Below are positions 10,442 through 29,329 of a stretch of 64,000 nt of DNA, one piece after another. The position numbers and the translations under genes were made by a program. The notes below the pieces were generated by a model. That model made no database searches. It saw only the letters and a program-made list of their open reading frames with translations, and was not told the DNA's origin. The stretch's first letter is position 1. Every line of letters starts with the position of its first letter. This stretch comes from Bifidobacterium bifidum ATCC 29521 = JCM 1255 = DSM 20456 (GTDB taxonomy: Bacteria; Actinomycetota; Actinomycetes; Actinomycetales; Bifidobacteriaceae). The DNA is taken from contig NZ_AP012323.1 of NCBI RefSeq assembly GCF_001025135.1, positions 1,860,001 to 1,924,000 of the forward strand, given 5' to 3'.

Positions 10442-11134
10442 ATGAACCTTTGCCAACGCCGGCAGACGACCGATGCCGATATGTCGGACGATCTGCGCAA
10501 GAGACAGCTGAGACGGGACGCCATCGCGCGGCGTAAGACCGTGACGCGGCAGGAACGGGACGCGGCCGCGGCGGCACTGGCCGAACACATTGTGCCGTTG
10601 CTGGACTTGGTCGGCGTGCAGGCCGGCACGTCTGGCGTCATGTCCGCGCCACACGGCCGCGGACACCGGCCGCCGACCGTGGCCGCCTACGTGTCGATGG
10701 GCAGCGAAATCCCCATGCGGCCGCTGCTGTCCCTGCTGCTCGACCGCGGGCTGCGCGTCCTTGTGCCGCGCTTGGGCTCCGGTCTGGACGTGGGATGGGC
10801 TCTGCTGCCCGACATGGCCTCATTGCATGGCGTGACCTGCGAGGGAACCGGCATGGCACAACGGCCGGATGAGCCGGATACGCAGACGCTTGGCCCGGCG
10901 GCCCTTGGCGATGCCGACCTGATCATCGTGCCCGCGCTGGCCGTGGATGCGCATGGCGTCCGGCTTGGGCGCGGCGGCGGCTGGTATGACCGCGCGCTGA
11001 CATACCGACGCGGAGGCGTGCCGGTCGTCGCCGTCTGCTGGCCGTGGGAATGCATGGCAGACGACCTGCCCCGCCAGTCTCACGATATCCCGGTCGACTG
11101 GGTGGTCACGCCGCAGGGAGCCCAACGCCTGTAG
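10442..11134 (+). CDS. 5-formyltetrahydrofolate cyclo-ligase
   Basis: This 230-residue enzyme converts 5-formyl-THF to 5,10-methenyl-THF with ATP, recovering stored folate. Family features are the basic N-terminal RKRQLRRDAIARRK (ATP site), VAAYVSMGSEIPMRPLL, and the C-terminal signature PALAVDAHGVRLGRGGGWYDRAL. The ATG at 10442 has no clear ribosome site, so the transcript may be leaderless; the ATG at 10481 is an alternative start. The protein is somewhat longer than the roughly 190-residue norm because of an insertion after residue 55. Its place between GNAT, sepX and FmdB genes is conserved in actinobacteria. Confidence 0.9.
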   Translation: MNLCQRRQTTDADMSDDLRKRQLRRDAIARRKTVTRQERDAAAAALAEHIVPLLDLVGVQAGTSGVMSAPHGRGHRPPTVAAYVSMGSEIPMRPLLSLLLDRGLRVLVPRLGSGLDVGWALLPDMASLHGVTCEGTGMAQRPDEPDTQTLGPAALGDADLIIVPALAVDAHGVRLGRGGGWYDRALTYRRGGVPVVAVCWPWECMADDLPRQSHDIPVDWVVTPQGAQRL

Positions 11135-11482: not shown

Positions 11483-11633
11483 GCAGCTGCCATTGGCGCG
11501 TTCGCCGTCTTCCGGCGGCCAGTGCTCGGCCCGCGCATGTGCGACACGCCCAAGATGTGGATAACTGCCGAGCCTTCGACCACATTTTCGTCACGGCTTG
11601 CGCATCGGAACAACGTTCAGTCACCATGCTTGC

Positions 11634-12293
11634 ATGGTGACTTTTTCTATATTGGAGAAGCTGAAGCGCCCCACGTTGCGCCAACGTCGGATGCTGCGGC
11701 TCACACGGCGGCTGATGGCGGCCTGTTGCACGGCCATTGCAGCATTCGCGACACTGCAATGCGTGACGGCGAGCATCGTCACGCAACCGGTCGTGGTGGC
11801 GGCACGGCTCATCCCACGCGGCGCGCGTATCGGCGCGGAGGACGTGGAGATCCGGCAGATGCCCGTATCGGATGGTTGGGATACGGCGCTCGATGCGGCG
11901 AATCAGGCGGCGGGAGGCATCGCGCAGACGGACATCGCCGCCGGGCAGCCGCTGTTCGGCGCCATAGTTTCGCGGCGGCCGGTGGCGGAACCCGGTCAGA
12001 CGGTGATCGATGTACGGGTCACCGGCACTGTGGACGGCATCGCGGCCGGTGATGTCATGGATCTGGTATCCGGCACCCCTTGCGACGCTTCGACTGGTAC
12101 GACTTCATCGCGTGACGAATCCGCAGGCGGCCGGTCATGCGTTCTCGCGCGATCGGCCACGGCGATGGATGCCGCCCATGACGATGCGATGACCGGCGGC
12201 ACGCTCATCACGTTCGCTTTGACTCCCGACGAAGCCATATCAATCATCAACGCACAGGAACTCGGTCCGATTATGGCCGTCACTGCGCAATAG
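11634..12293 (+). CDS. SAF-domain protein with signal anchor
   Basis: A 219-residue protein with a basic N-terminus, a hydrophobic helix (LMAACCTAIAAFATLQC, about residues 27-43) and an extracellular SAF domain (VTQPVVVAARLIPRGARIGA then EDVEIRQMPV), the fold shared by CpaB/RcpC and antifreeze-like proteins. SAF proteins of this context are secreted and poorly characterised. The ATG at 11634 is favoured, though no ribosome site is seen and ATG 11691 is possible. The last 80 residues are Thr/Ser/Asp-rich before a hydrophobic end (LITFALTPDEAISIINAQE). It follows FmdB on the same strand after 151 bases. Confidence 0.75.
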   Translation: MVTFSILEKLKRPTLRQRRMLRLTRRLMAACCTAIAAFATLQCVTASIVTQPVVVAARLIPRGARIGAEDVEIRQMPVSDGWDTALDAANQAAGGIAQTDIAAGQPLFGAIVSRRPVAEPGQTVIDVRVTGTVDGIAAGDVMDLVSGTPCDASTGTTSSRDESAGGRSCVLARSATAMDAAHDDAMTGGTLITFALTPDEAISIINAQELGPIMAVTAQ

Positions 12294-12361: not shown

Positions 12362-12616
12362 TCAACGTTTGTCGTTGAAGATGGCCCAGTGGGGTGGCAG
12401 TTCGCCGAGGATGCGTTTGTCGTCGTCGGCCTCGCGCTGCTGCTCGGTACGCATATCGCCCGGTTCGAGTTTCACGCCGTCTGCATCGAAGCGCTCGGTT
12501 CCGTGGAACACGACGCGTTTGTGCTCGCGCCGCGTACGACGCGAGGCACTGTACGGCCTTGGCTCCGAGGCATCTGCGGCCACACGATCCCCGTCACCAG
12601 TAGTATCGCCGCTCAT
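12362..12616 (-). CDS. Small conserved-looking protein, third gene of the FHA operon
   Basis: An 84-residue charged protein without membrane segments. It begins MSGDTTGDGDRVAADASEPR, has a basic patch (SRRTRREHKRVVFHGTERFD) and ends LGELPPHWAIFNDKR. I do not recognise a family. The start is fixed by its 4-base ATGA overlap with the stop of the upstream helicase-like gene (12613-12616), which implies translational coupling and a linked function. A frame open further upstream (to 12700) lies inside that gene and is not needed. Confidence 0.7.
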   Translation of the reverse strand: MSGDTTGDGDRVAADASEPRPYSASRRTRREHKRVVFHGTERFDADGVKLEPGDMRTEQQREADDDKRILGELPPHWAIFNDKR

Positions 12617-15600
12617 CGCACATCCCCGTAGATCTCGCCGATGCGCGACACGATCGCATCGACCTCCTTGTCCGGGTTGACGAATGCGCCGACACTCCAC
12701 ACGCTCATCACCGACCAGCCCAGCGACGCAAGGTCCTGCATCAGGCCGCGATGCCGTTCACGCGTGGACTGCACGCTCATGAACTGCGCGTCGTCGGTCA
12801 GCACGGCCAGCGCGAACGGCTTGTCGGGCAACCCGACGACCATCGGAATGTGCAGGCCGCGGTCGAACCCGTAGTCGACGGCGGCGTTCAGTCCGCGGGA
12901 CCGCACGCGCTCCGCCAGATCATTGAACAGCACATTGTTCGACCGGGTGATGGTCACCGGACGCACCACGTGGTCGTCCAGCTGCTCCACCCAGCGCAGC
13001 ATGGCATGCAGCAGCTGCGGTCCGGGCTGGTGAAGTCGCTCATCGTCCAGATCAGACTCGTCGAACGCCGAAACGATATCGAGATGGCGGTCGCACAGCG
13101 CCAGCGCATCCAGCAGCATGGCACGTCCGCCTTCGCCCTCCAGCACGCCGAACTGCTGCAGCAGACGCCCATGCACGGTCTTCGCGTAGCACAACGACAG
13201 AATCACGTCCGTCGACTGGGCCCCGGCGATCTCCGGCAGCGCGACGATGCGCACGTGGCGCAGGAACTGCCCCATGGTCTTGTTCTTCGACGCCAGCGAT
13301 TTCAGTTCCGCACCGAGTCGCGAACGGAACGCGTCGGTGAGCGTGACCACGGTCAGCGTGTAGCCGACTGGCACCACGTTGAAACTCGCCGCGCGTTCGG
13401 TGATGATGCGGACGACCTCATCGATCTCCTGCTGGCTGCTCTCGACCAATCCGGTGGCCATGACCGGCGTTCCGTTCGCCTCGACCTTGTGGAAGGCCAC
13501 CCGGCCTTGCGACGGCTCGGTCGTGACGTCATAGCGCACCTCGCCATACCCCTGGGATTCCAAGAACGCGGCGAGCCTGGGCGCGCGCCGCACGGGGTGG
13601 GAGCGGACCTTCACGCTCGGCAGCAGCTCCATCAGCGCCTTCACGCTCGGCGAGGTCACGGTGGACCGGTGGGCCAGCACGGCCACCTGCTTCGCGCGGC
13701 AGACGATGGTCAGCAACTGGATGGCCGGAATGTGCGCGGCCGCGTCGATGATTGCCACGTCGGCGAGGGTCGTCGGATCGGTGAGCGCGGCAAGCGTGGC
13801 CGGGGTCGCCACGATGATGGGCTTGGCCGCGGCCAGGATCTCGGGGTGGTCACGGCGTATCCGGCTGAGCGGGATGCGGGTCTTGCCGGCCAGCACCGTG
13901 TGCAGCTGGTTGGATTCCTGCGTGCGGGAGAACAGCATTTCACACAGGCGGCGCATGGATTCCTGCGCGACCATCGGACCGACCGAACGCACGTGTTCGG
14001 TGTCCACCTGCGCGAAACGATCCGCAGCGGACTGCAACGCCGACCCATCCTGATTGGAGATGATCGCGGACGCCCGCACGATGTTCTCGAACACCGTGGT
14101 CCACCATGCCAGCTGCAGTTCGGCATCCACCGATTCCACCGGCACACGGCGCGTGTGCAGGTCCTCGACCAGTTCGGTGAGCCCGGCCGTCTGGAATTCA
14201 TGTTCGAGACGGCAGCGCTCCGGCAGTGTGTCCAGCGCGAGATGGTCGTCGAACAGCGCCTTCAGACGTTCCTCGACGGCGACGAAATCCTGCGATTCCA
14301 GATCGCCGCCCTGCACGGTGGTGGACAGTACGGCGTCCAGCGCCGTCAGGTCGCGGGCCAGCTCCTCCTGCGTGGCGATGATGTCGTCGAGTTTGTTCGG
14401 CAGCACCGGCCACCCGCCGTGAGGCACGAACATGCGCCATTGCGCGGCCTGCTTGGCCACGACCTGCAGCGCATCGTGCAGGTTCTCGACCTGTGCGCCC
14501 ACGCGCAGCAGGCTCTTGGCCTCCTTGATATGGCGGCGACGCTCCCAGAATCCGATAGTGGTGCCTTCGGCCTTGCGTTCGGCCTTGGACTTGCTCGACT
14601 CGATCATCGCGTCGATGTCGCGCTCGAAGATCTCCGGCTGGAACACGTCGAGCACGCGGCGCAGGTTCTTCAGCACCTGCACCTGACGGCCCCACTCCTG
14701 CTCGGTGTTCGGTATCGGGAACCCGCATGTCTGCACGGTGGACGACACCTGTTCACGGGTCAACGGCAGCAACTTGCGCAGCAGATCGACCACACGCTGG
14801 TAGACGGTCACAGCCTCGTCCTCGGACGTAATGGAGGCCTTGAACCAAGCGGTATCCTCCGGTCCGAGCGTGAATTCGCCGAGCTCGCCGGCACGCCTGA
14901 GCTTCGCCGCCCATTCGTCCAGATGACCGCCGATCTCACGCGCGGTCTCCTTGCGCAACCGCACTCGGGTGGCGGGATGCGCGGGCAACGTGGCGATTTC
15001 GGCGAGGTTCTGTATGGTCTGGTACGCGGACACGCCCCACTGCTTGTCGGTGCAGTGCAGGTCACCCAGATACCGGGTGAGACGGGAACGCACGCCGACC
15101 AGCTCATCGGCGATCTGGTCGAACCGGGAGCTGGCGACGCCGGGCTGGAATCCGACCGCGGCGATCAGCTGATGGTCGATGCTGTCATTGCAGCGCTCGT
15201 CCGAGACGTCGAGCACTTGGCCGCTGAGCTCATTGGCGCTGATGGCCTGACGGAAACGACGCTTCTGATCGGCGATGCACGGCACGTACAGTACGCTGCG
15301 GCCGTTCATCACGCAGCGCGACGCGATGGCGGCGGCGTAATCGGCGGTGTCACGCCCGTTGACGACATCGACTCCGAGTGAATGCCCGGCTGCGACCATA
15401 TCGGCCGCGTACCGCACGGCGTTGTCGACATCGCCGACTTCGAACTCGTTGTGCGGATCGGCGTCGAATGGGCTGAACGCAGGTGCGCCGGAGTCCTTGA
15501 GCGCTTCGGCGGCCTCCTTGCTGCCCGCGAGCGCGTCCAGCACCGTGTTGCCGGTCGCCCCCTCGGCCAGCGTATCGATAATGTGCTGGCTTTCGGCAAG

Positions 15601-16242
15601 AATCAGCGAGCCGGGCGACATGAAGCAGCCCAGGATAATCTGCCGCTCGATGGTGAAATCGGGGAACACCTTCTCCGCACGCTTGGTGATCGCCGCGAAC
15701 ACCGCGGACGTTTCGGGCGTGCCGCTCTCGTAGTTGGCGCCGTTGAACAGCTCCCGCTCGTCAAGTTCGACGTGCTGCTCGCGCATCACCGTCACGAACG
15801 CGGGGTTGAGCCGGACATGCCCGACGAACCGGATCACCGCCACATCGCCTTCATCCTGGGCGCTTTGCACGGATACCGGATACAGCAGCACCGGCATGGC
15901 ACCGTCGTCCCATGTGGCGACTCCCACGGTGAGAGACAGTTCCGCGACGCCGCTGACGCGCAGTTTCGCGGCCTTCTCGTCAAGCACCCGCTCCAGTCGG
16001 CGGTTCGCCGCACGCAGCATGCCGTTGTCGCGGAACAGCAGATCCAGCGACGCGCGGCCTCCCGCGAACAGCTGGGCGATGCCGGAGGGATGCGCATGGG
16101 TCAAATCGAGCTTCGCCCCAAGCTGGTTGATGTCCTCCAATGGGGACGGCACCAATCCGGCGCGGTACTGCTCATGCCATTGACGCATGCGTTCCAGCGA
16201 TTGGGGCGCCTGTTGCATGCTTTCGCTCATGACCCGACTCAC
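12613..16242 (-). CDS. Helicase-like protein with degenerate ATPase and nuclease motifs
   Basis: A 1209-residue protein laid out like DUF4011-type SF1 helicases with a C-terminal MTES_1575-like endonuclease fold. Where Walker A is expected (about residues 291-308) it reads VDVVNGRDTADYAA, lacking GKS/GKT. Where DEAS is expected (about 827-840) it reads VAIIDAAAHIPAIQLL. The C-terminal domain (about 1107-1200) keeps the shape ending LASLGWSVMSVWS but reads ALAVLTDD where a catalytic Glu normally stands. The frame is intact, so the protein is probably a non-catalytic scaffold. It starts with GTG overlapping the FHA gene stop (GTGA); an ATG at 16230 is also possible. It overlaps the next gene by 4 bases. 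Confidence 0.75.
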   Translation of the reverse strand: MSRVMSESMQQAPQSLERMRQWHEQYRAGLVPSPLEDINQLGAKLDLTHAHPSGIAQLFAGGRASLDLLFRDNGMLRAANRRLERVLDEKAAKLRVSGVAELSLTVGVATWDDGAMPVLLYPVSVQSAQDEGDVAVIRFVGHVRLNPAFVTVMREQHVELDERELFNGANYESGTPETSAVFAAITKRAEKVFPDFTIERQIILGCFMSPGSLILAESQHIIDTLAEGATGNTVLDALAGSKEAAEALKDSGAPAFSPFDADPHNEFEVGDVDNAVRYAADMVAAGHSLGVDVVNGRDTADYAAAIASRCVMNGRSVLYVPCIADQKRRFRQAISANELSGQVLDVSDERCNDSIDHQLIAAVGFQPGVASSRFDQIADELVGVRSRLTRYLGDLHCTDKQWGVSAYQTIQNLAEIATLPAHPATRVRLRKETAREIGGHLDEWAAKLRRAGELGEFTLGPEDTAWFKASITSEDEAVTVYQRVVDLLRKLLPLTREQVSSTVQTCGFPIPNTEQEWGRQVQVLKNLRRVLDVFQPEIFERDIDAMIESSKSKAERKAEGTTIGFWERRRHIKEAKSLLRVGAQVENLHDALQVVAKQAAQWRMFVPHGGWPVLPNKLDDIIATQEELARDLTALDAVLSTTVQGGDLESQDFVAVEERLKALFDDHLALDTLPERCRLEHEFQTAGLTELVEDLHTRRVPVESVDAELQLAWWTTVFENIVRASAIISNQDGSALQSAADRFAQVDTEHVRSVGPMVAQESMRRLCEMLFSRTQESNQLHTVLAGKTRIPLSRIRRDHPEILAAAKPIIVATPATLAALTDPTTLADVAIIDAAAHIPAIQLLTIVCRAKQVAVLAHRSTVTSPSVKALMELLPSVKVRSHPVRRAPRLAAFLESQGYGEVRYDVTTEPSQGRVAFHKVEANGTPVMATGLVESSQQEIDEVVRIITERAASFNVVPVGYTLTVVTLTDAFRSRLGAELKSLASKNKTMGQFLRHVRIVALPEIAGAQSTDVILSLCYAKTVHGRLLQQFGVLEGEGGRAMLLDALALCDRHLDIVSAFDESDLDDERLHQPGPQLLHAMLRWVEQLDDHVVRPVTITRSNNVLFNDLAERVRSRGLNAAVDYGFDRGLHIPMVVGLPDKPFALAVLTDDAQFMSVQSTRERHRGLMQDLASLGWSVMSVWSVGAFVNPDKEVDAIVSRIGEIYGDVR

Positions 16243-17900
16243 TTCCCTACCGCTTTGCGGTAACTCTTGTAGCCCTCATTGTTCTCCAGCGCGGCGTCGA
16301 TGTCCGATTTGCCCTGATCTTCCAGCCAATTATAGAGGTCATCGTACAGCAATGGATTCATGGCAAGGAACGGCAGCAGCTCTTCGCAATTCGCGATGGC
16401 GAACTGCTCGGTGTAGTCTTCCGTGGTCTTCGCCTGGTCAGAGGTGTACCCGTTGACTTCGATTTTCGGTTCGGCGGCGGCAAGCCTGCCTTTCGACACG
16501 AGTTCGAACACCGATCCCGGCTCGAATGCGGGTCGGAACGAACCGGTCGAGTCCGCCTCGTCGTCGTTCGGTTGCGCGAACCGGCGGTGCTCTTCCGGAA
16601 TCTCCCCGTGGGCGATGTCCGTATCGGCTTTCACGACGCCGTCGCCTGCCACGGCGCCGGCGGTGACTTCCACACCGGCCGCGTTGGCTGCGACCTCGTT
16701 CACCGCCTGACGGATGTCGTCGTGCGCCTCCTGATCGGATGACGCCTGCTGGAATCGGTCGTCGGACGGCTGTCCGTTCGCCAACTGATCCGCCTGCTCT
16801 GCGGGCGCGGTGGACTGCCCGGCCTCTTCGCTGTCCTCGGCGAGCGCGTCGGCGAACAGGTCGCGGGGCAACGCCACCACCGGCTTAGCATCGGCACCGG
16901 CCACGTTCAACGGCATGGAATCGGGCTCGCTCGGCTCATCGTTGGTCTGCGATTGGGCCGCGGTCACTACAGAATCAGATACAGCGGAATCAGCCGGTAC
17001 CGTATCCGCGGCGGACTCGGATGCCACGGTTCCAGAAGTCACGGTTTCAGGCGATGCCGTATCGGATGTCGCAGTCTCAGTGGATACGGCCGCGTCCGCG
17101 GCATCAACGGCATCCGCAGGCGCCGCATTCTCGGAGGACTCGGCGGCTTCCGGAACCTTGGTCTCGGCATCGCTCTCGGCAGCGTCGGCCTCAGCCGGCG
17201 ACACGGTTTCGGCCAGCACCGCGGCCTCAACGGGCATGGCAGCATCCGACGAAACGGCAAGCTCCGAATCCAGCTCAGCGGCGCCGGCCGCGGAATCCGC
17301 CGCCAATCCATCCGCCGTGGTCGTCTTCTGCGGCGGGAACGTCTGCGATGCGGCGGCATTCAGCTCACCGACACGCTTGCGCACGGTGGCAGCGCTGATC
17401 GCGGCGGTAGGTTCCCCGGCACGCAGGTCAAGAATGTCATCCACCGACATGTCGGCCACATCCGGCTCCTGCTTGACGGTCTCCAAAGCGTATCCGAACA
17501 GGTCGGGCACGACAAACGTGTCGCTCACCGGCTGCTCCACACGAATGAAATCGACGGGGACATCGCCGAATTGCAGGCGCATCGGTGAAGTCGGCAGCAG
17601 GAAATCGACGTTCGGCGGCAGACGCATGAGATCGCCATTGCCCCGCACCACATATGACCCGTTGGTCGAGCCCAGATCGCGCACGGTGCCGCCGCCGTTC
17701 TGACTCACCGCGAAGGTCGCATGGCGTTTCGACATGGACCGCGTGCCGTCCGCTATCTCCAGGCGTTCGGTGCCGTCATCGGGCAACGGCCGCAACGGCT
17801 TGCGCCCGATTTCGATGTTGTCTCCCGGCTTCACGGTTTTCTGATCGATGCCACCGATTCTCACCGTCCACTGCTGTATCGTCCGCTGATCGCCAGTCAC
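16239..17900 (-). CDS. FHA-domain protein with long acidic linker
   Basis: A 553-residue protein. Residues 1-115 form an FHA phosphothreonine-binding domain: IEIGRKPLRPLPDDG, then SMSKRHATF and DLGSTNGSYVV, which hold the GR, SxxH and NG residues of the family. Residues 165-460 are Ala/Ser/Asp/Glu-rich and probably disordered. A compact C-terminal module (about 480-553) includes EDYTEQFAIANCEELLPFLA and NWLEDQGKSDIDAALE and is unlike known domains. It starts with GTG at 17900 behind AGGAAGGG. It heads a three-gene coupled operon and, by family knowledge, should bind a Ser/Thr-kinase-phosphorylated partner. Confidence 0.82.
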   Translation of the reverse strand: MTGDQRTIQQWTVRIGGIDQKTVKPGDNIEIGRKPLRPLPDDGTERLEIADGTRSMSKRHATFAVSQNGGGTVRDLGSTNGSYVVRGNGDLMRLPPNVDFLLPTSPMRLQFGDVPVDFIRVEQPVSDTFVVPDLFGYALETVKQEPDVADMSVDDILDLRAGEPTAAISAATVRKRVGELNAAASQTFPPQKTTTADGLAADSAAGAAELDSELAVSSDAAMPVEAAVLAETVSPAEADAAESDAETKVPEAAESSENAAPADAVDAADAAVSTETATSDTASPETVTSGTVASESAADTVPADSAVSDSVVTAAQSQTNDEPSEPDSMPLNVAGADAKPVVALPRDLFADALAEDSEEAGQSTAPAEQADQLANGQPSDDRFQQASSDQEAHDDIRQAVNEVAANAAGVEVTAGAVAGDGVVKADTDIAHGEIPEEHRRFAQPNDDEADSTGSFRPAFEPGSVFELVSKGRLAAAEPKIEVNGYTSDQAKTTEDYTEQFAIANCEELLPFLAMNPLLYDDLYNWLEDQGKSDIDAALENNEGYKSYRKAVGK

Positions 17901-18192: not shown

Positions 18193-18576
18193 TTACTTGA
18201 GCTCGACGGTGGCGCCAGCCTCTTCCAGCTGAGCCTTGGCCTTCTCGGCGTCTTCCTTCTTGGCCTTCTCCAGGATGGCCTTCGGAGCGCCATCAACCAT
18301 GGCCTTGGCGTCAGCCAGGCCAGCGTTGGTGATGGCCTTGACAGCCTTGATGACCTGGATCTTCTTGTCGCCGACAGCGGTCAGGACGACATCGAACTCG
18401 GTCTTCTCTTCCTCTTCGGCGGCAGCGCCGGCAGCCGGAGCGGCAACGGCGACGGCGGCCGGAGCGGCAGCCTCGACGTCGAACTTCTCTTCGAAGGCCT
18501 TGACGAACTCGGAGAGCTCGACGAGGGTCATTTCACCGAAAGCTTCCAGCAGCTCTTCGTTGGTGTACTTAGCCAT
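18193..18576 (-). CDS. rplL: 50S ribosomal protein L7/L12
   Basis: A 127-residue stalk protein that recruits translation GTPases. The N-terminal dimerisation part ([20 protein letters not shown]), the flexible Ala-rich hinge (residues 37-55) and the globular domain ([20 protein letters not shown] onward, ending ATVELK) are all present at normal length. It follows rplJ by 99 bases in the usual rplJL operon. Confidence 0.97.
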
Positions 18577-20778: not shown

Positions 20779-23700
20779 TCAGCGCTTGGCCAGTGCGAGC
20801 GCCGCGCCGGCCATGAGCGTCAGGGCCGCGGCGGCGATCGGAACGATGCCGGCACCGGTGGCGCTCAGCCCGCCCTTCTCGCCGGTATCGGGCTTGGTCT
20901 CGTCGCCCTTGCCCGGCTTGCCGGGATCGGGCTTGCCGCCGTCGTCAGGCTTGCCGTCACCCGCGCCGGGCTTGCCACCATCACCCGGTCCGGGCTTGTC
21001 ACCGTCATCCTTGGCCTTCAGCCCGTCGACGGCCGCATTCAGACTTGCGAGCGCAGCGTCAATCTCGGCCTGCGTCGCATCAGGATCGGCGGAGACCTTC
21101 TCGGCTGCGGCAAGCGCATCACGCACCGCCCGGACGGACTCATCCGTATACCCACCCAGATCCTTGGCCTTGACCTGCGCGATCACGGCGTTCAGCTCGT
21201 CCTTGCTCACCTTGCCGGGATCGGGATCCGGCGTCTCGGCGGGCTTCAGCCCGTCGATGGCCGCATCGATGGCGGCGACGAGCGCGTCAACCTGCGCCTG
21301 TTGCAGGGATTCGTCGGCGTCTCCGGCCTTCGCGGCCTTCACTGCGGCATCCATCTTCGCCCACGAGTCAGCCGTGTAGTCGGCCGCATTCAGCGCCTCT
21401 GCCCGCTTGATTGCCGCCTTCAGTCCGCTGCGGTCGATGAGACCGTTCGCGTATTCGACCTCGCCGAGCTTGAACTTCGCCTGCTTGATATAGCAGCGGT
21501 CGGTGGTGACGCCGCCGGGCCAGTTCTGCGAGAATTCCTTGTCCCAGTGACCGTACGTGTCCATGATGAACGTACCGTCGTCGAGCACCGCTACGCCCGC
21601 GTAGCCGGTGTCGCCCGACTTCGCGTTGTTCGCCCAGTCCTCGGCCAGCAGGATGCGGTATTCGCCGTCCTCCTGGTTAATGAGCTGGTCGTAGGTGCCG
21701 ACCCAGGCCACCCAGTCGCCGGCGTTCCAGTCGCTGCCGCCGTCGAACCGGTTGTTGCCGTTGAGATCGTAGTTGATCTCGCGGAACGTGACCAGCAGAC
21801 GGCCGGAAATCGGATCGTAGGCAATCTTGTGCCGTTCGCCCGCCAGCGAGCCGGGCAGATCCATTGGCTTGCTCCACGTCTCGCCTTCATCATCAGAGTA
21901 GATCAGTGTCGCCGGGTTGTTGTGCGACTGGCTGCGCGCCAAACCGATGATCCGCTTGCCGTCGGGAGAACGGAACATGCCGATCTCGCACATCTGGTAT
22001 GCGCTTTCGATGCTGCGCCATTGCGCAAGATACGGCTCCGATTCGCTCCACTGCTCGTCGCCGTTCTCGTCGAAAGTGAGGTACGTCCTGAAATTGACGT
22101 ACGCGTAGTTGTGGTAGACGCCCATCCATTTCTGGATGTCGTTGCCGTCGGAGTCCTTGAGCTGCACGAGGCTTGCCATGGCGACGATGGCATCGTTGTT
22201 GGCGTTGTCGTACGTGCGGTTGGACTGCCAGTGCCGGTATTCGGTCCAGGTCTCACCGTTGTCGTCGGAATACGATGTGTTCCATCCGTACCTGTTGCCG
22301 GCGGAGTCGGTGCCCCAGCCCGGGCAGGCGGTGATCATCATGATGCGTTCGGTGCCGTCGGCCAGGTTGAGCACGTACAGGGTCGGCGTCTCCTGCGAAC
22401 CGGCCCACGACGCGGGGATGTCGGTCTTGCGCGTCCAGGTGGCGCCGTCGTCGTCGCTGATCTTCATGATCAACGGTCCCTTGCCGTGCCCTTGCGGGAA
22501 CGAGGTGATCAGACGGCCGCTCTTCGTGCGGATCATGTCGGGCTGGCCGAAGTACTGGTTGGACGTGTCGAGTGACTTGTGCACGTCCATGACCTTCGTC
22601 TGGTCGAGCTTGTATTGCGGCAGCGTGTTCTTGATGGTGAGTTCGCGGCTCACGTTGACGGTCACCATGTCGGTGAATCCACCTCCCCGGACGGTAATGA
22701 CCGCCGTTCCGCGGGACACTCCGGTAACGGTGCCGGAGGCGTCGACCTTGGCGATGGTCGGGTCGCTCGACTCGAACGTGACTGTACCATCACCGTCGCC
22801 GCCCTGCAGGTTGGCGACGATGGTGTACGTCCCGCCGATGTACATATCGGTCTCATGCTCGGCGAGGTTGAGACCGGGCAGCAGCATGCCGGCCGCGATC
22901 TCGGTGTCGGAGAGCACGCGCTTGTAGATCTTCACCTCGTCGATCAGGCCAGTGAAGCCGGGGCCGCCGATCACGTCGATCGGGGCGACGACATCGTGCA
23001 TCTTCGTCCACGTGTTCGTCGCGCCGATCTTCGTGCCGTTGACGTACATGGTCAGTCCGGCTGCCTTGTCCTGAGTCCACGCGATGTAATACCACGTGCC
23101 CGGCTGGAAGTCGTACCGGAAGGTGAGCACGTCGCCGCTGGCGGTGCCGACACGGAAGCCGGATTCGCGGTCGGCGTCCATCTTGAGGTCGGCCGAGTAC
23201 TTGCCGTCCGCGCTCGTCATCACGGCCGAGCGGCCGGTGAGTTCGGCGTCGGAACGCACCCAGTAGCCGATCGTCCACGGATCCGTCTTCGCGATGTCGT
23301 TGCCGCCGGCCAGGGTCACGCCTTTGCCGTCCGTGACCTTGAGCGCCTTGCCGGACTTGCCGTCAACGTATTGCGCCGTGGCGTCGGCGGTGCCGTTGCG
23401 GGTGCCCCAGGAGTCGTTGGCGTTCGAGTTGTCGAACGAGTAGTAGTGCAGCCCCTGCGCCACGACCTGTGGCGTCACGGTGAGGGTGATGCTCGCCGAT
23501 TTCGTCGGGTCGGCCTTGGATGTGGCGGTGATTGTGGTGGAGCCCACGCCGGCGGCGGTCACCACGCCCTTGGCGGATACCGTGACGACGCCGGTCTTGG
23601 ACGAGCGCCATGTCACGGACGCGTTCAGCAGGTTCGCCGGCTTGAGTGTCGCGGTCAGCTGCTTCGCCGTGCCCAGCATGATCTCCTGGTCGCCGCCGTC

Positions 23701-26274
23701 GATAGCAACGGATTCCACCGTGCTCGTGCCTTGCGCCTTGAGGGATATGTACTTGTCGGTGAGCGTGTCGAGGTCACCCTTGAATCCGCTCATCTCATTG
23801 GCAAGCTGTGTGACCTGCGCGTCGGTCAGATACGAGTGCGAGGTCGTCACCGTCGTTCTGATCTTCGCGTACATCGCGTCGGCATCGGCCTGCAACGAGG
23901 GGATCTCGGTGACCATGAGCCTGATCTTGTTCACGTCGCGCACGCCCTCGGCGATGCGCTCCAGGCGCACGGACGACTTGGACACCTTGTCTCCGCTCTT
24001 CTCGCTCGGATAAATCAGGAACGGGTCGCCGGGCTCGAAGGCGTTGTGCGTGGCGTCGTTGAGCGGGTCGGCCACCCATGCGTCGTACGCCCAGCGCAGG
24101 AAGCCGCTGGTCTGCTCGCCCGCGTTGACCACCGACCAGTAGCTTTCGACCGGGGCGGACAGCGAGAAGTTGCCGGGCTCATGCTCGGTGCAGGAGTACA
24201 GCGTGGTGCGAAGGTCCTTTGCCTCACGCGCCTCGATCAGCCGGGTGAAGTCGGTGGGATGGGCCGCCGCCGCGGTGTCGCCGACGTTCAGGTCGGTGAC
24301 GCGCAGCGCCAGGTCGAACTTGTTGACGAAGCCGTCCATCGCGCCGGCGGTCTTCAACGGCACGTCGTGGATATTCCGTATCGAGTCGATCAGGTCGAAC
24401 GCGTCGGCGCTGAAGCCGCGCTCGTCGATGCCGATGTACGACTCATCGAACCAGCCCTTGTCCATCAGATGCTCGATGAGCTTGCGCAGGAAGTCGGTCC
24501 ACACGCTCCTCCAGCGCTCGGATCCGACCGTGTATCTCTCGGACTTCATCGTCCCGTTCTCCCAGTACGTGAAGTTGCCGTGCCAGGGCGCGATGCTGTA
24601 TATCACGATCTTGTCGCCGATGCCGAGTCCCTTGTTGAACGTCACCCACTTGTCGAAGTCGGTGAAGTCGTAGGTGAACCCGCCCCCGCTCTTGGTCCAC
24701 TTCACCATCGACGGGTAGTGGATGGCGTTGGCGCTGTAGGTCTGGCCGGACCATGCGTCCTCGTTGATGGTGGTTGTGATGGCGTGGCCGCCGATGGACT
24801 TGTACAGTTCCATGCTTGATCTGAGGATCTGCAGGTGCTCGTCCGAGAACGGGGTGACGCCGTAGTATTCCGCGGAGGAATACGGGTACTGCCACAGTTC
24901 CACGTCGAAGTTCTTCTCATACTCTGCCGGATCAGGCAGCGTAGCGGCCTTCACCTCGATGGTGTAGGTGAATGTGAGCGGCGTTTCCATCCCGTCTGCG
25001 GTGGCGGTCAGCGTGGTGGTGTAGGTGCCGGCCTTGGCGTCCTTCGGTATGGCGAACGATACCCAGATGTTCTGCACCTGATTGGCCTTCACCGTGATCG
25101 GGCCGCTTTGGTAGAGGATGTCGTTGCTTTCGGAGCGGTTGGTCTCGGTGGCGGCGGGCACCTCGCGGTTCGGGTCTCCGTAGCCGAGATAGCTGCCGTT
25201 GTATGCCTTGGTGGACTTGATGAACGTGGCCGTGACGTTGCTTTTGGCGATGACGTCGCCGCCCTGCGATGTCAGGTCGCTTGCGGTGACCGTCAGGTTC
25301 GAGACGGTGGTGCCGACCGCGGCGAGCGAGATCTCGCTGTTGACCTTGTCGTTCTTCCACGCTTTCAGCGCCCGGTTGTTCGTCGTGAGGGCCTTCACCT
25401 CGTCGAACCGCTTCTGCGTGTATTGCGTATCGGGGTCCACGATGCCGCCGGTCAGGTTCGGTGCCATCCTGGCGACGGTGACGTCGACGGTCTTGCTGAT
25501 GCCGGCCGCAGTCGAGGCCACGGTGATGGCGGTGGCTCCCGGCGCGACCGCGGTGACCGTGCCATCTGCGCCGACTGTGGCGACACTCGTGTCGCCGCTC
25601 GTGTAGGTCATGTCATCGATGGTCGCGTAATCGGGCGCCACCGTATACGAGATCCGCTTGCTGTCGCCAACGCCCAGCGTCATCGAGGTCGTGTCGAGTG
25701 TGACGCCGGTGACCACGTACGGCTGATGGGTCACGACGACCTTGGCGCAGTCGATCAGCGCGTTCGTGGAATTCGTGTCCCGCTCGCCTGTGGCCACCGC
25801 CTTGAACACGTGCTCACCTTCGTCAAGCCCGGTGAACGACGCGATTTTCGTCTCGTTGATGTTGGAGGCGTTGTACAGGCTGTACGTGCCTTTTTCCGCT
25901 CCGTCAATATAGTATTTCACCTTGCCCATGGGCCTGTTCTTGCCTGCATAGACGTCGATTGCGCTGCCGAAGAATCGGACCGTATACCAGATGTCCTCCG
26001 CCGGGAGGCTGTCGGATGGCGCCTTGGACCACGTATGCACGTCGTTGCCCGGATCCCAGGCGTTGTCGGCGAACGTGAAGTAGTTGCCGTCGCCGGTGAT
26101 CTTGGTGTGCGAGATGGTGGTGGTCTGCATGGGCTCGACGGCCTGCGCCCGCATCCCCGCGAAATGGGGGCCCATGACCGTCGCCAGCATCATGGATACC
26201 GTGGCGATCACGGCGGCGGCAGGTCTCCATGGAGAGCCACGACCGCGCAACCACATAGATATTCTTCGGTTCAT
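20779..26274 (-). CDS. Giant cell-wall-anchored enzyme: GH123-like plus sialidase-type propeller
   Basis: An 1831-residue surface protein. In order: signal peptide (to about residue 45); beta-rich module (50-185); Big-type domain (188-268); DUF4091/GH123-like catalytic region (about 300-840) with the Asp-Glu pair in SYIGIDERGF near 615; second Big domain (850-935); concanavalin-like LamG module (940-1135); third Big-like domain; a BNR/sialidase-type propeller (about 1225-1600) with Asp boxes SDDDGATW, SDDNGETW and SDDEGETW; two FIVAR modules (1611-1755); Gly/Pro/Lys wall-spanning linker; and LSATG, hydrophobic helix and KR tail, a sortase-type anchor. The propeller lacks a clear RIP motif, so true sialidase activity is doubtful. 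Start ATG 26274 follows GAAAGGA. It probably releases sugars from host glycans. Confidence 0.82.
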   Translation of the reverse strand: MNRRISMWLRGRGSPWRPAAAVIATVSMMLATVMGPHFAGMRAQAVEPMQTTTISHTKITGDGNYFTFADNAWDPGNDVHTWSKAPSDSLPAEDIWYTVRFFGSAIDVYAGKNRPMGKVKYYIDGAEKGTYSLYNASNINETKIASFTGLDEGEHVFKAVATGERDTNSTNALIDCAKVVVTHQPYVVTGVTLDTTSMTLGVGDSKRISYTVAPDYATIDDMTYTSGDTSVATVGADGTVTAVAPGATAITVASTAAGISKTVDVTVARMAPNLTGGIVDPDTQYTQKRFDEVKALTTNNRALKAWKNDKVNSEISLAAVGTTVSNLTVTASDLTSQGGDVIAKSNVTATFIKSTKAYNGSYLGYGDPNREVPAATETNRSESNDILYQSGPITVKANQVQNIWVSFAIPKDAKAGTYTTTLTATADGMETPLTFTYTIEVKAATLPDPAEYEKNFDVELWQYPYSSAEYYGVTPFSDEHLQILRSSMELYKSIGGHAITTTINEDAWSGQTYSANAIHYPSMVKWTKSGGGFTYDFTDFDKWVTFNKGLGIGDKIVIYSIAPWHGNFTYWENGTMKSERYTVGSERWRSVWTDFLRKLIEHLMDKGWFDESYIGIDERGFSADAFDLIDSIRNIHDVPLKTAGAMDGFVNKFDLALRVTDLNVGDTAAAAHPTDFTRLIEAREAKDLRTTLYSCTEHEPGNFSLSAPVESYWSVVNAGEQTSGFLRWAYDAWVADPLNDATHNAFEPGDPFLIYPSEKSGDKVSKSSVRLERIAEGVRDVNKIRLMVTEIPSLQADADAMYAKIRTTVTTSHSYLTDAQVTQLANEMSGFKGDLDTLTDKYISLKAQGTSTVESVAIDGGDQEIMLGTAKQLTATLKPANLLNASVTWRSSKTGVVTVSAKGVVTAAGVGSTTITATSKADPTKSASITLTVTPQVVAQGLHYYSFDNSNANDSWGTRNGTADATAQYVDGKSGKALKVTDGKGVTLAGGNDIAKTDPWTIGYWVRSDAELTGRSAVMTSADGKYSADLKMDADRESGFRVGTASGDVLTFRYDFQPGTWYYIAWTQDKAAGLTMYVNGTKIGATNTWTKMHDVVAPIDVIGGPGFTGLIDEVKIYKRVLSDTEIAAGMLLPGLNLAEHETDMYIGGTYTIVANLQGGDGDGTVTFESSDPTIAKVDASGTVTGVSRGTAVITVRGGGFTDMVTVNVSRELTIKNTLPQYKLDQTKVMDVHKSLDTSNQYFGQPDMIRTKSGRLITSFPQGHGKGPLIMKISDDDGATWTRKTDIPASWAGSQETPTLYVLNLADGTERIMMITACPGWGTDSAGNRYGWNTSYSDDNGETWTEYRHWQSNRTYDNANNDAIVAMASLVQLKDSDGNDIQKWMGVYHNYAYVNFRTYLTFDENGDEQWSESEPYLAQWRSIESAYQMCEIGMFRSPDGKRIIGLARSQSHNNPATLIYSDDEGETWSKPMDLPGSLAGERHKIAYDPISGRLLVTFREINYDLNGNNRFDGGSDWNAGDWVAWVGTYDQLINQEDGEYRILLAEDWANNAKSGDTGYAGVAVLDDGTFIMDTYGHWDKEFSQNWPGGVTTDRCYIKQAKFKLGEVEYANGLIDRSGLKAAIKRAEALNAADYTADSWAKMDAAVKAAKAGDADESLQQAQVDALVAAIDAAIDGLKPAETPDPDPGKVSKDELNAVIAQVKAKDLGGYTDESVRAVRDALAAAEKVSADPDATQAEIDAALASLNAAVDGLKAKDDGDKPGPGDGGKPGAGDGKPDDGGKPDPGKPGKGDETKPDTGEKGGLSATGAGIVPIAAAALTLMAGAALALAKR

Positions 26275-28201: not shown

Positions 28202-28330
28202 ACTTTCTCTGCTTCCTTGAATGTGCGAGGCCATCCGGCCTCGGCGAGACAAACTGCTATTCGCCCGGTTTCCCGAACACGCCCACCATAACATCTTCAT
28301 AAGTCATGGATGTTATGGTGTCGGACGGCC

Positions 28331-28374
28331 TGTGGATATATGTGGATAACCCGTTCTCCATCCACATATCCACA
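28331..28374. repeat. Palindromic cluster of DnaA-box-like repeats
   Basis: TGTGGATAT (28331-28339) and TGTGGATAA (28341-28349) on one side face ATCCACAT and ATATCCACA (28366-28374) on the other. TGTGGATAA is the complement of the perfect DnaA box TTATCCACA. The cluster lies between two divergent genes. Confidence 0.6.
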
Positions 28375-28426
28375 GAAATCCCGCCGTCGGTGGCGCGCGG
28401 GCCCCCGACCCGCTAGCGTTGCGCCC

Positions 28427-29329
28427 ATGAACGATTACGAACCGATACCGGGCGAGCCGACAGCCACCATGTTCCAGTCATTGGAACAGATTAGGCGGCA
28501 GACTCTGCAACGCTGCACCGCCACGGTAGGGCAGTCCGACCGCCAGCTGCTCTTCGGCATGACCACCGCTCTGGAACTGCAAGGCGTGCCGGTGCCCTCC
28601 CACTGCAATCTCGACACGGCCGCGCTGCATGTCACGGTGCGGACGCGCTCCGGCAGGCCTCATATTCGACCGTTGAAATCCGTCCCGGTCATTGTCCACA
28701 TCTGGAGCCATTGCACTCCGCAATCACTCATCCACATATCGAATGGCGTGCACGCATTGCACGTGTTTCATGTGTGGGCGCAGCTGTCCCCATATCTTTC
28801 GACAGAGGATCTTGTTGTGCTCGGAGATTCCATTCTCACGATGCTGGTACGCAATGGCGCGCCGGACGCGGACAAATTGTATCTGGAGTTGCAGCGTTTC
28901 ATAAAAGAGATGCCGCCGTTCCGAGGAAAAAGCATTTGCAGGCAAGCCATGACACTGGTACGCCCCAATATACGGTCTCCCGCCGAAAGCTCGCTACGGC
29001 TGGGCGTTCAACGCCACGGAATACCGGATGGACGATGCAATGTCGTGGTTCCTGGAATCACCTTTCGTTCAGGAGCAGCCATTTCGCTGGACATCGCATG
29101 GGTCGAGTTCAAGGTCGGAGTGGAATATGACGGCGATCATCATCGAACGGATAAGGTCCAGTGGCGCCGAGACAACGAAAAAAGGGAACGGTTGCGGGCC
29201 CACGGCTGGATATTAATCATCGTGACCGCTCAAAATCTGATTGACGAGATGTCGATTGCGGAACTGGCCCTGCGTATAGCAAGACGACTCGCCGAGCGCG
29301 GAGCTTCGAGGTCATCGCAATCAGCCTAG
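28427..29329 (+). CDS. Vsr/DUF559-type nuclease-fold protein
   Basis: A 300-residue protein. The C-terminal 90 residues follow the Vsr-like DUF559 fold seen in actinobacterial AbiEi-like proteins: LDIAWVEFKVGVEYDGDHHR, with acidic D and E residues and a DGDHH core, then a TDKVQWRRDNEKRERL segment and HGWILIIVTAQNL. The N-terminal 200 residues (a MTTALELQGVPVPSH region, later LYLELQRFIKEMPPFRGKS) resemble the helical AbiEi-type part. Catalytic residues appear intact. No partner toxin gene is adjacent. The ATG at 28427 is close behind GCTAGCGTT, suggesting a leaderless transcript. A role in DNA repair or antitoxin control is possible but unproven. Confidence 0.7.
   Translation: MNDYEPIPGEPTATMFQSLEQIRRQTLQRCTATVGQSDRQLLFGMTTALELQGVPVPSHCNLDTAALHVTVRTRSGRPHIRPLKSVPVIVHIWSHCTPQSLIHISNGVHALHVFHVWAQLSPYLSTEDLVVLGDSILTMLVRNGAPDADKLYLELQRFIKEMPPFRGKSICRQAMTLVRPNIRSPAESSLRLGVQRHGIPDGRCNVVVPGITFRSGAAISLDIAWVEFKVGVEYDGDHHRTDKVQWRRDNEKRERLRAHGWILIIVTAQNLIDEMSIAELALRIARRLAERGASRSSQSA

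Follow-up and report, generated by a model that had tools for sequence, protein, structure and literature searches.

A putative pseudohelicase-nuclease of the Bifidobacteriaceae with a split, conserved C-terminal tail and an FHA-domain partner

Bacterial helicases that have lost their catalysis are known from a few systems. In AddB and RecC, inactivated helicase domains of superfamily 1 (SF1) reportedly act as scanners that recognize Chi (PMC4824097), and the PriA of Deinococcus radiodurans is described as having lost ATPase and unwinding activity while still binding DNA and DnaB (PMC4504706). In addition, a DUF4011 gene flanks a defense hotspot in every Pseudomonas aeruginosa isolate, so that it is a core gene there too (PMC10250203). 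Family models, pseudohelicases and a core DUF4011 gene in P. aeruginosa are already on record. Here we analyzed a three-gene operon of Bifidobacterium bifidum ATCC 29521, which lies in a stretch of 64,000 nucleotides (contig NZ_AP012323.1, positions 1,860,001 to 1,924,000 of the forward strand) referred to below as the window; all positions are those of the window. The operon encodes an FHA-LRV protein, a large protein with helicase and nuclease ancestry (P0001) and a small protein (Table 1). Our analysis indicates that catalysis has decayed within a core gene that the order inherits vertically, and that the small gene is a tail split off from the helicase. Among the matches listed and in open-licence PubMed Central text we found no description of the family, the tail or the trio, nor of any core pseudohelicase-nuclease that spans an order and has a conserved, split tail.

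Judged by profile comparison, the large protein shares ancestry with the SF1 Upf1-like helicases SMUBP-2, Upf1 and Dna2. When P0001 alone was compared with the PDB sequences, only chance-like matches came up, and a family profile was needed: the 25-member profile A2 matched SMUBP-2 (7e-6) and NAM7, Upf1 and Dna2 (6e-4 to 7e-3), and these matches fall either on the lobe with the P-loop or on the one with Walker B. The closest named match is a protein from B. leontopitheci with 86% identity. Among the defense models of PADLOC, the protein matched PDC-S37 (3.5e-48, three stretches, the best at residues 934-1203) and Hhe (9e-12), the homology to the PDC-S37 models covering helicase domain 2A and the nuclease; in NCBIfam, it matched ProA (NF058533, 1.3e-44) and Hhe (NF042953, 1.2e-14). 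It fails the equivalog cut-offs of the latter two, reaching 152.2 of 1500 bits for ProA and 52.7 of 2000 for Hhe. The orthologues with intact motifs, L128 from the order and L150 from the class, score 820 and 916 bits with PDC-S37 and are also below the equivalog cut-off, at 801 and 868 of 1500 bits. With Pfam, the large protein matched only MTES_1575, below the gathering score (35.7 of 38.2 bits, E 9.6e-9), and no DUF4011 match was found in P0001 at E 10. L128 and L150 carry DUF4011, AAA_11, AAA_12 and MTES_1575 above cut-off; DUF4011 is also above cut-off in L151 and L115 and absent from L101 and L096. The first-pass annotation, made from the sequence alone, had proposed a DUF4011-type helicase with a C-terminal endonuclease fold. 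The descent from helicase and nuclease is upheld, since a search for the opposite outcome, a lack of any helicase similarity, returned clear profile similarity to SF1 helicases, but the DUF4011 layout holds for orthologues and was not detected by Pfam in P0001 itself.

The C-terminal domain was compared with known structures through a model of the last 125 residues (mean predicted local distance difference test score, pLDDT, 74). VIA-align matched it to 3hrl with a Z of 8.9 (88 residues, 2.3 Å) and to the homing endonuclease I-Bth0305I (3r3p) with a Z of 8.4. These Z values exceed background only modestly, and Foldseek found nothing at E 0.001 for the nuclease-domain model; we therefore regard a restriction-endonuclease-like fold as likely for this model, not as proven.

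In the B. bifidum protein, the aligned columns agree with the reading already made of a broken P-loop, a DEAS box replaced by DAAA and a nuclease Glu position reading ALAVLTDD. They also indicate that a second nuclease acid has been lost, the first catalytic Asp being replaced by Pro, which goes beyond the Glu noted earlier. A P-loop elsewhere in the protein was sought with the pattern [AG]xxxxGK[ST], which has no match anywhere in P0001 and matches one of the 60 family rows (L059), at residue 42.

To follow these losses we used a motif alignment of 118 members that includes 18 families of the order, in which the Walker A column is gapped in two rows; the 60 rows of the Bifidobacteriaceae (f1, L002-L061) were added to the fixed alignment, and among these L002/L007 and L003/L008 seem to be near-duplicates. 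Fifteen of the 118 rows have the Walker A Lys: both rows of f4, 11 of 19 in f16, one in f25 (a doubtful fragment) and one in f40. Walker B DE is kept in 14 of these 15. In 16 of the 18 order families the Lys is missing throughout, with R, A, Q, G, V, S, T or other residues in its position. None of the 60 Bifidobacteriaceae rows has the Walker A Lys or the Walker B Glu (A, G, T, S, L or D at the latter), and three retain the second motif VI Arg. The first nuclease acid is Asp in all 14 intact rows versus Pro in 40/40 rows of f1, f3, f8 and f12, a count that omits three divergent f1 rows; over the f1 rows it is Pro in 60/60, and the nuclease Glu is found in 2/60, with mostly Leu in its place. 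The nuclease of L150 is intact (IEADGASYHSS). Intermediate states also occur. Both nuclease acids are present without the Walker A Lys in the f6 rows shown and in four of the five f5 rows, so that in at least two families ATPase loss preceded nuclease loss; in f18 and f35 the Glu is kept and the first Asp lost. The residues thus bear out the suggestion that the protein is non-enzymatic, but catalytic loss is no bifidobacterial oddity, because 16 of 18 order families lack the Lys and almost all order genomes sampled carry the gene. It could be objected that the protein is still an enzyme, binding ATP without the Walker Lys or holding a metal site on Asp1150, Arg1161 and Arg1165. Indeed, these three residues and Ser1159 are invariant in alignment A1, but the Walker A Lys, the Walker B Glu, nearly always the second motif VI Arg and the two nuclease acids are all replaced in the family, and we find this explanation hardly credible.

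The decay appears to have affected a core gene passed on vertically within the order. A tree was built from 106 of the 118 rows (L160, L162, L132, L198, L057, L055, L135, L136, L137, L194, L157 and L158 were dropped), with the motif columns excluded. A single branch separates each of 13 of the 15 listed families from all other rows; f16 and f12 need two changes, and the state of the Walker A Lys requires at least two changes. Gene neighborhoods were also compared. A 5-formyltetrahydrofolate cyclo-ligase (5-FTHF-ligase) gene, present near the B. bifidum operon, was found near the large gene in 13 of 29 other loci (f1, f3, f5, f6, f16, f18 and f35) and not found in the other 16 within their flanks. 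Three f16 loci with the Walker A Lys keep this neighbor (G472, G232 and G272); flanks of about 5-10 kb did not show it in the other seven of ten f16 loci (L110 included), the two f4 loci or the f40 locus. This pattern would fit decay in place. We find no support so far for the idea that the intact copies are unrelated paralogues: families and tree agree for the most part, and the three f16 loci with an intact Walker A Lys share the 5-FTHF-ligase neighbor.

Within Bifidobacterium, the large protein is under strong purifying selection. Using our own Nei-Gojobori script, we obtained ratios of nonsynonymous to synonymous substitution rates (dN/dS) of 0.03-0.12 over six pairs: 0.12 in the nearest species pair, 0.05 and 0.07 in two pairs whose synonymous sites are near saturation, and 0.03-0.05 in three closer pairs of another species group. 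In the nearest pair each domain gave 0.08-0.13, the dead P-loop lobe included. The proposal that selection maintains the intact frame, previously drawn from its length, is confirmed by this check.

Nearly all sampled genomes of the order have the large gene, whose distribution outside the order is patchy. A homologue was found in 112/112 genomes of the genus and in 181/189 of the family, some of these matches being weak (G188, 1e-8; G122, 2e-16). In one genome that is 88% complete (G077, locus L275), the C-terminal part of the gene runs over several frames, by error or decay. Among order genomes at least 90% complete, a 20-row profile matched 394/396, or 357/359 without the 37 genomes of the own family, and G249 and G304 had no match; each matching genome has a best match of 1e-37 or better, and paralogues could be among the matches. 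In the class sample 19/98 genomes were positive, namely 7/7 of the own order and 12/91 others, including 7/7 of f35. The trio itself was found to be widespread in the family when its absence from related genomes was sought. For B. breve, PMC5514069 reports 53 essential hypothetical genes. These data bear on the possibility that the protein serves anti-phage defense without catalysis, sensing phage DNA ends or replication intermediates and signaling through the FHA protein. The closest models, PDC-S37, ProA and Hhe, are indeed anti-phage, but the scores are far below the model cut-offs. Moreover, defense genes usually spread patchily, unlike a gene present throughout the genus, with a tree that largely follows the families and a partly conserved neighborhood. 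We consider a defense role decidedly unlikely.

The small gene is, by comparison of downstream open reading frames (ORFs), the C-terminal tail of the helicase, split off as a separate gene. The small protein ends in DDKRILGELPPHW. Among 122 loci with enough flank (one per handle, with at least two near-duplicates among them), a PPH[WFY] peptide stands near the end of the next downstream ORF in 94, versus 1/366 control strips from the same loci. In 15 further loci the peptide ends the helicase itself, giving 109/122 with a split or fused tail. The 13 loci without it are two from f3 (PPHA), five from f6, two from f19, one each from f8 and f1, and two from outside the order. Both states are present in f5, f12, f14 and f16, and within the genus the helicase of G067 carries the small protein as a fused part, 87% identical over residues 22-84. 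Members with an intact Walker A also have the tail, fused in four f16 loci and split in both f4 loci and a further four f16 loci; no tail was detected in the f40 locus, nor in the f6 locus and one of the two f35 loci examined with them. The tail thus seems to be older than the loss of catalysis and to have persisted after it. Confinement of the small gene to bifidobacteria is rejected, the tail being found in other families. The trio named by the first-pass annotation is thus real, but its third member is a detached piece of the second.

The upstream gene probably has a different history. Its FHA domain, anticipated earlier, scores above the Pfam cut-off, and its GR...SMSKRH...STNG residues occupy the usual phosphothreonine-binding positions; the motif with GR, S..RH and NG positions is also seen in family loci. 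The FHA gene lies directly upstream of the large gene in 21 of 24 family loci with flank and in 5/5 more. One regular expression for an FHA-like motif matched no ORF of 20 loci of other families, whose upstream genes include guaA, Usp and others. Because the gene is adjacent in 26/29 family loci and its motif was not found in those 20 outside, it probably joined the operon within the Bifidobacteriaceae. LRV_2 is also found just upstream of the large gene in other family genomes, such as G033, G061 and G142. The B. bifidum genome (G000) has four LRV_2 matches, one of which is the FHA gene. A frame of 1760 residues in G022 was considered as an FHA-helicase fusion and rejected, the FHA ORF being separate. 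An "FHA domain protein" with an insertion in the Scardovia clade is listed in PMC4921777 and may or may not be the product of this FHA gene.

The gene ends and start codons (GTG at 16242, ATG at 12616) agree with the previously reported coordinates and 4-base overlaps at both joints of the trio. The starts are predicted ones, and a second in-frame ATG lies four codons inside the large gene. Some relatives have the overlap and not all: L002 has it at both joints and L003 only at the second.

Table 1 Positions in the window of the operon, its elements and its neighbors
Feature	Positions	Strand	Basis or remark
FHA-LRV gene, 553 aa	16239-17900	-	FHA, then long Ala/Ser/Thr/Asp-rich linker, then C-terminal LRV_2
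FHA domain, residues 31-89, GR...SMSKRH...STNG	17634-17810	-	Pfam FHA 26.5 bits (cut-off 20.7)
LRV_2 domain, residues 492-540	16281-16427	-	Pfam 35.7 bits (cut-off 27)
Large gene, 1209 aa, SF1 (Upf1-like) helicase that is catalytically degenerate, MTES_1575-type nuclease domain at C-terminus	12613-16242	-	Profiles and alignment
P-loop remnant VDVVNGRDTADY, residues 291-302	15337-15372	-	Intact orthologues have GPPGTGKSQT
Walker B/DEAS remnant DAAA, residues 833-836	13735-13746	-	Aligned columns
Nuclease-like domain, residues 1108-1201	12640-12921	-	Asp to Pro1133, Glu to Leu1148, Asp1150 kept
Small gene, 84 aa, detached C-terminal helicase tail	12362-12616	-	Downstream-ORF comparison
ELPPHW motif of tail	12386-12403	-	Sole [DE]xPPHW DNA-pattern match in own genome (reversed control: one)
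rplL (L7/L12), upstream operon neighbor in family	18193-18576	-	20/24 family loci
5-formyltetrahydrofolate cyclo-ligase family gene, convergent neighbor	10442-11134	+	1.2 kb beyond operon
SAF-domain gene, convergent neighbor	11598-12293	+	Also in 7/20 loci of other families

The recurrence of rplL upstream in the family raises the possibility that the large protein is a structural subunit or chaperone of another core machine, such as the replisome, the ribosome or the transcription apparatus, and takes no part in nucleic-acid processing. The helicase regions between the motifs are conserved about as well as the motif regions, which would suit such a role. Yet the 20 loci from other families yielded neither L7/L12 nor L10, and the motif V region (K-T-x-H-G-R) remains conserved, so that we hold this explanation to be unlikely. 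Other features of the surroundings are recorded for completeness. An antisense ORF of 876 residues over the large gene (12751-15381, plus strand) is probably a by-product of high GC content. A separate nuclease-like gene of 339 residues (28310-29329, plus strand) has a weak MTES_1575 match (25.2 bits; cut-off 38.2). The protein of 1831 residues at 20779-26274 (minus strand) carries GH123 catalytic, Big_2, laminin-G and FIVAR domains. In some species an FHA gene sits in the PFNA cluster (PMC8430577). Membership of the operon in a PFNA kinase cluster is not supported here, as this neighbor is a GH123 protein and no kinase or FN3 domain was present in the ten neighboring ORFs scanned.

We propose that the Bifidobacteriaceae protein is, probably, a nucleic-acid-binding scaffold comparable to RecC and AddB, the inactive helicase subunits of complexes that process DNA ends, with the PPHW tail for docking and the FHA protein for phospho-input. 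The ancestor would have been an SF1 helicase whose ATPase motifs were intact and which had a C-terminal nuclease of the PD-(D/E)XK type and a tail ending in PPHW. The ATPase residues were then lost in most families and the nuclease acids in many. The two RecA-like lobes and the dead nuclease domain may hold nucleic acid or a partner enzyme, and the split tail, given its conservation, may be a docking peptide that binds a partner or the large protein itself, a contact older than catalysis and outliving it. FHA-LRV would be a later regulatory subunit recruiting a threonine-phosphorylated partner, as its FHA residues and the coupled operon suggest. A broader reading is offered tentatively, with slightly more doubt than belief on our part: in an order-wide core helicase-nuclease, catalysis died stepwise, the PPHW contact was kept through ATPase loss, nuclease loss and repeated fission and fusion, and bifidobacteria added a phospho-reading subunit, so that the contact, and not the enzyme, would be the function and would mark an unknown core complex.

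Several observations weigh against these proposals. The tree was a quick one without a mixture model, rooted on L150 and L161 and with long branches flagged, and on it the loss of the nuclease Glu needs at least ten changes; decay was therefore apparently repeated. The full-length AlphaFold model of the large protein, made with five alignment rows, has a mean pLDDT of 35. The large gene was not found in 8 of the 189 family genomes (G123, G152, G161, G166-G169 and G177), G167 giving a marginal match of 0.07 at E 0.1. Two of these genomes are of good quality, G152 (99% complete) and G177 (0.6 Mb, 95%), so the gene is not an absolute requirement. None of the five f6 rows showed the tail, nor did the two f19 rows or the f40 locus. 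The [DE]xPPHW DNA pattern is not enriched, with 21 matches in 14 genomes against 30 in the reversed control, and therefore only its place is telling: 11 of the 14 genomes match, and all 11 have a match in the small ORF of the operon. One more match, in G282, ends a frame and looks like chance. Finally, the three family loci that lack the FHA gene (L228-L230) are the most divergent members.

If the proposals are true, sequenced species would hold intact, half-dead and dead orthologues that document, as few families do, how a helicase-nuclease of the anti-phage type evolved into a core pseudoenzyme. A large protein found in almost the whole order also gains a role open to testing, and its partner could be sought directly by pull-down with the conserved PPHW peptide. 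G152 and G177, as possible losses, could serve as natural knock-outs.

Compared with the described systems, the bifidobacterial protein is homologous to PDC-S37, ProA and Hhe but differs from them in lacking Walker A, Walker B, the motif VI Arg and the two nuclease acids, in being encoded by a core gene and in scoring far below the equivalog cut-offs. PriA is an SF2 helicase, and that of D. radiodurans, as a bacterial helicase without ATPase, may offer a parallel for DNA binding combined with partner contact. A nuclease domain, a split tail and an FHA partner are not described for it in the abstract of PMC4504706. The FHA-LRV protein resembles the actinobacterial FHA regulators FhaB and OdhI in its FHA domain and weak NCBIfam matches, but these reach only 19.3 of 200 and 16.2 of 125 bits, far below the cut-offs, and the FHA-linker-LRV_2 architecture and the genomic place are different. 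RecC, which has a dead nuclease fold, and AddB belong to the UvrD-like branch and not the Upf1-like branch found here; they have a RecB-type in place of an MTES_1575-type nuclease domain, and a motor partner is known only for them. Nevertheless, RecC, AddB and the bifidobacterial protein appear alike in having retained inactivated SF1 helicase folds.

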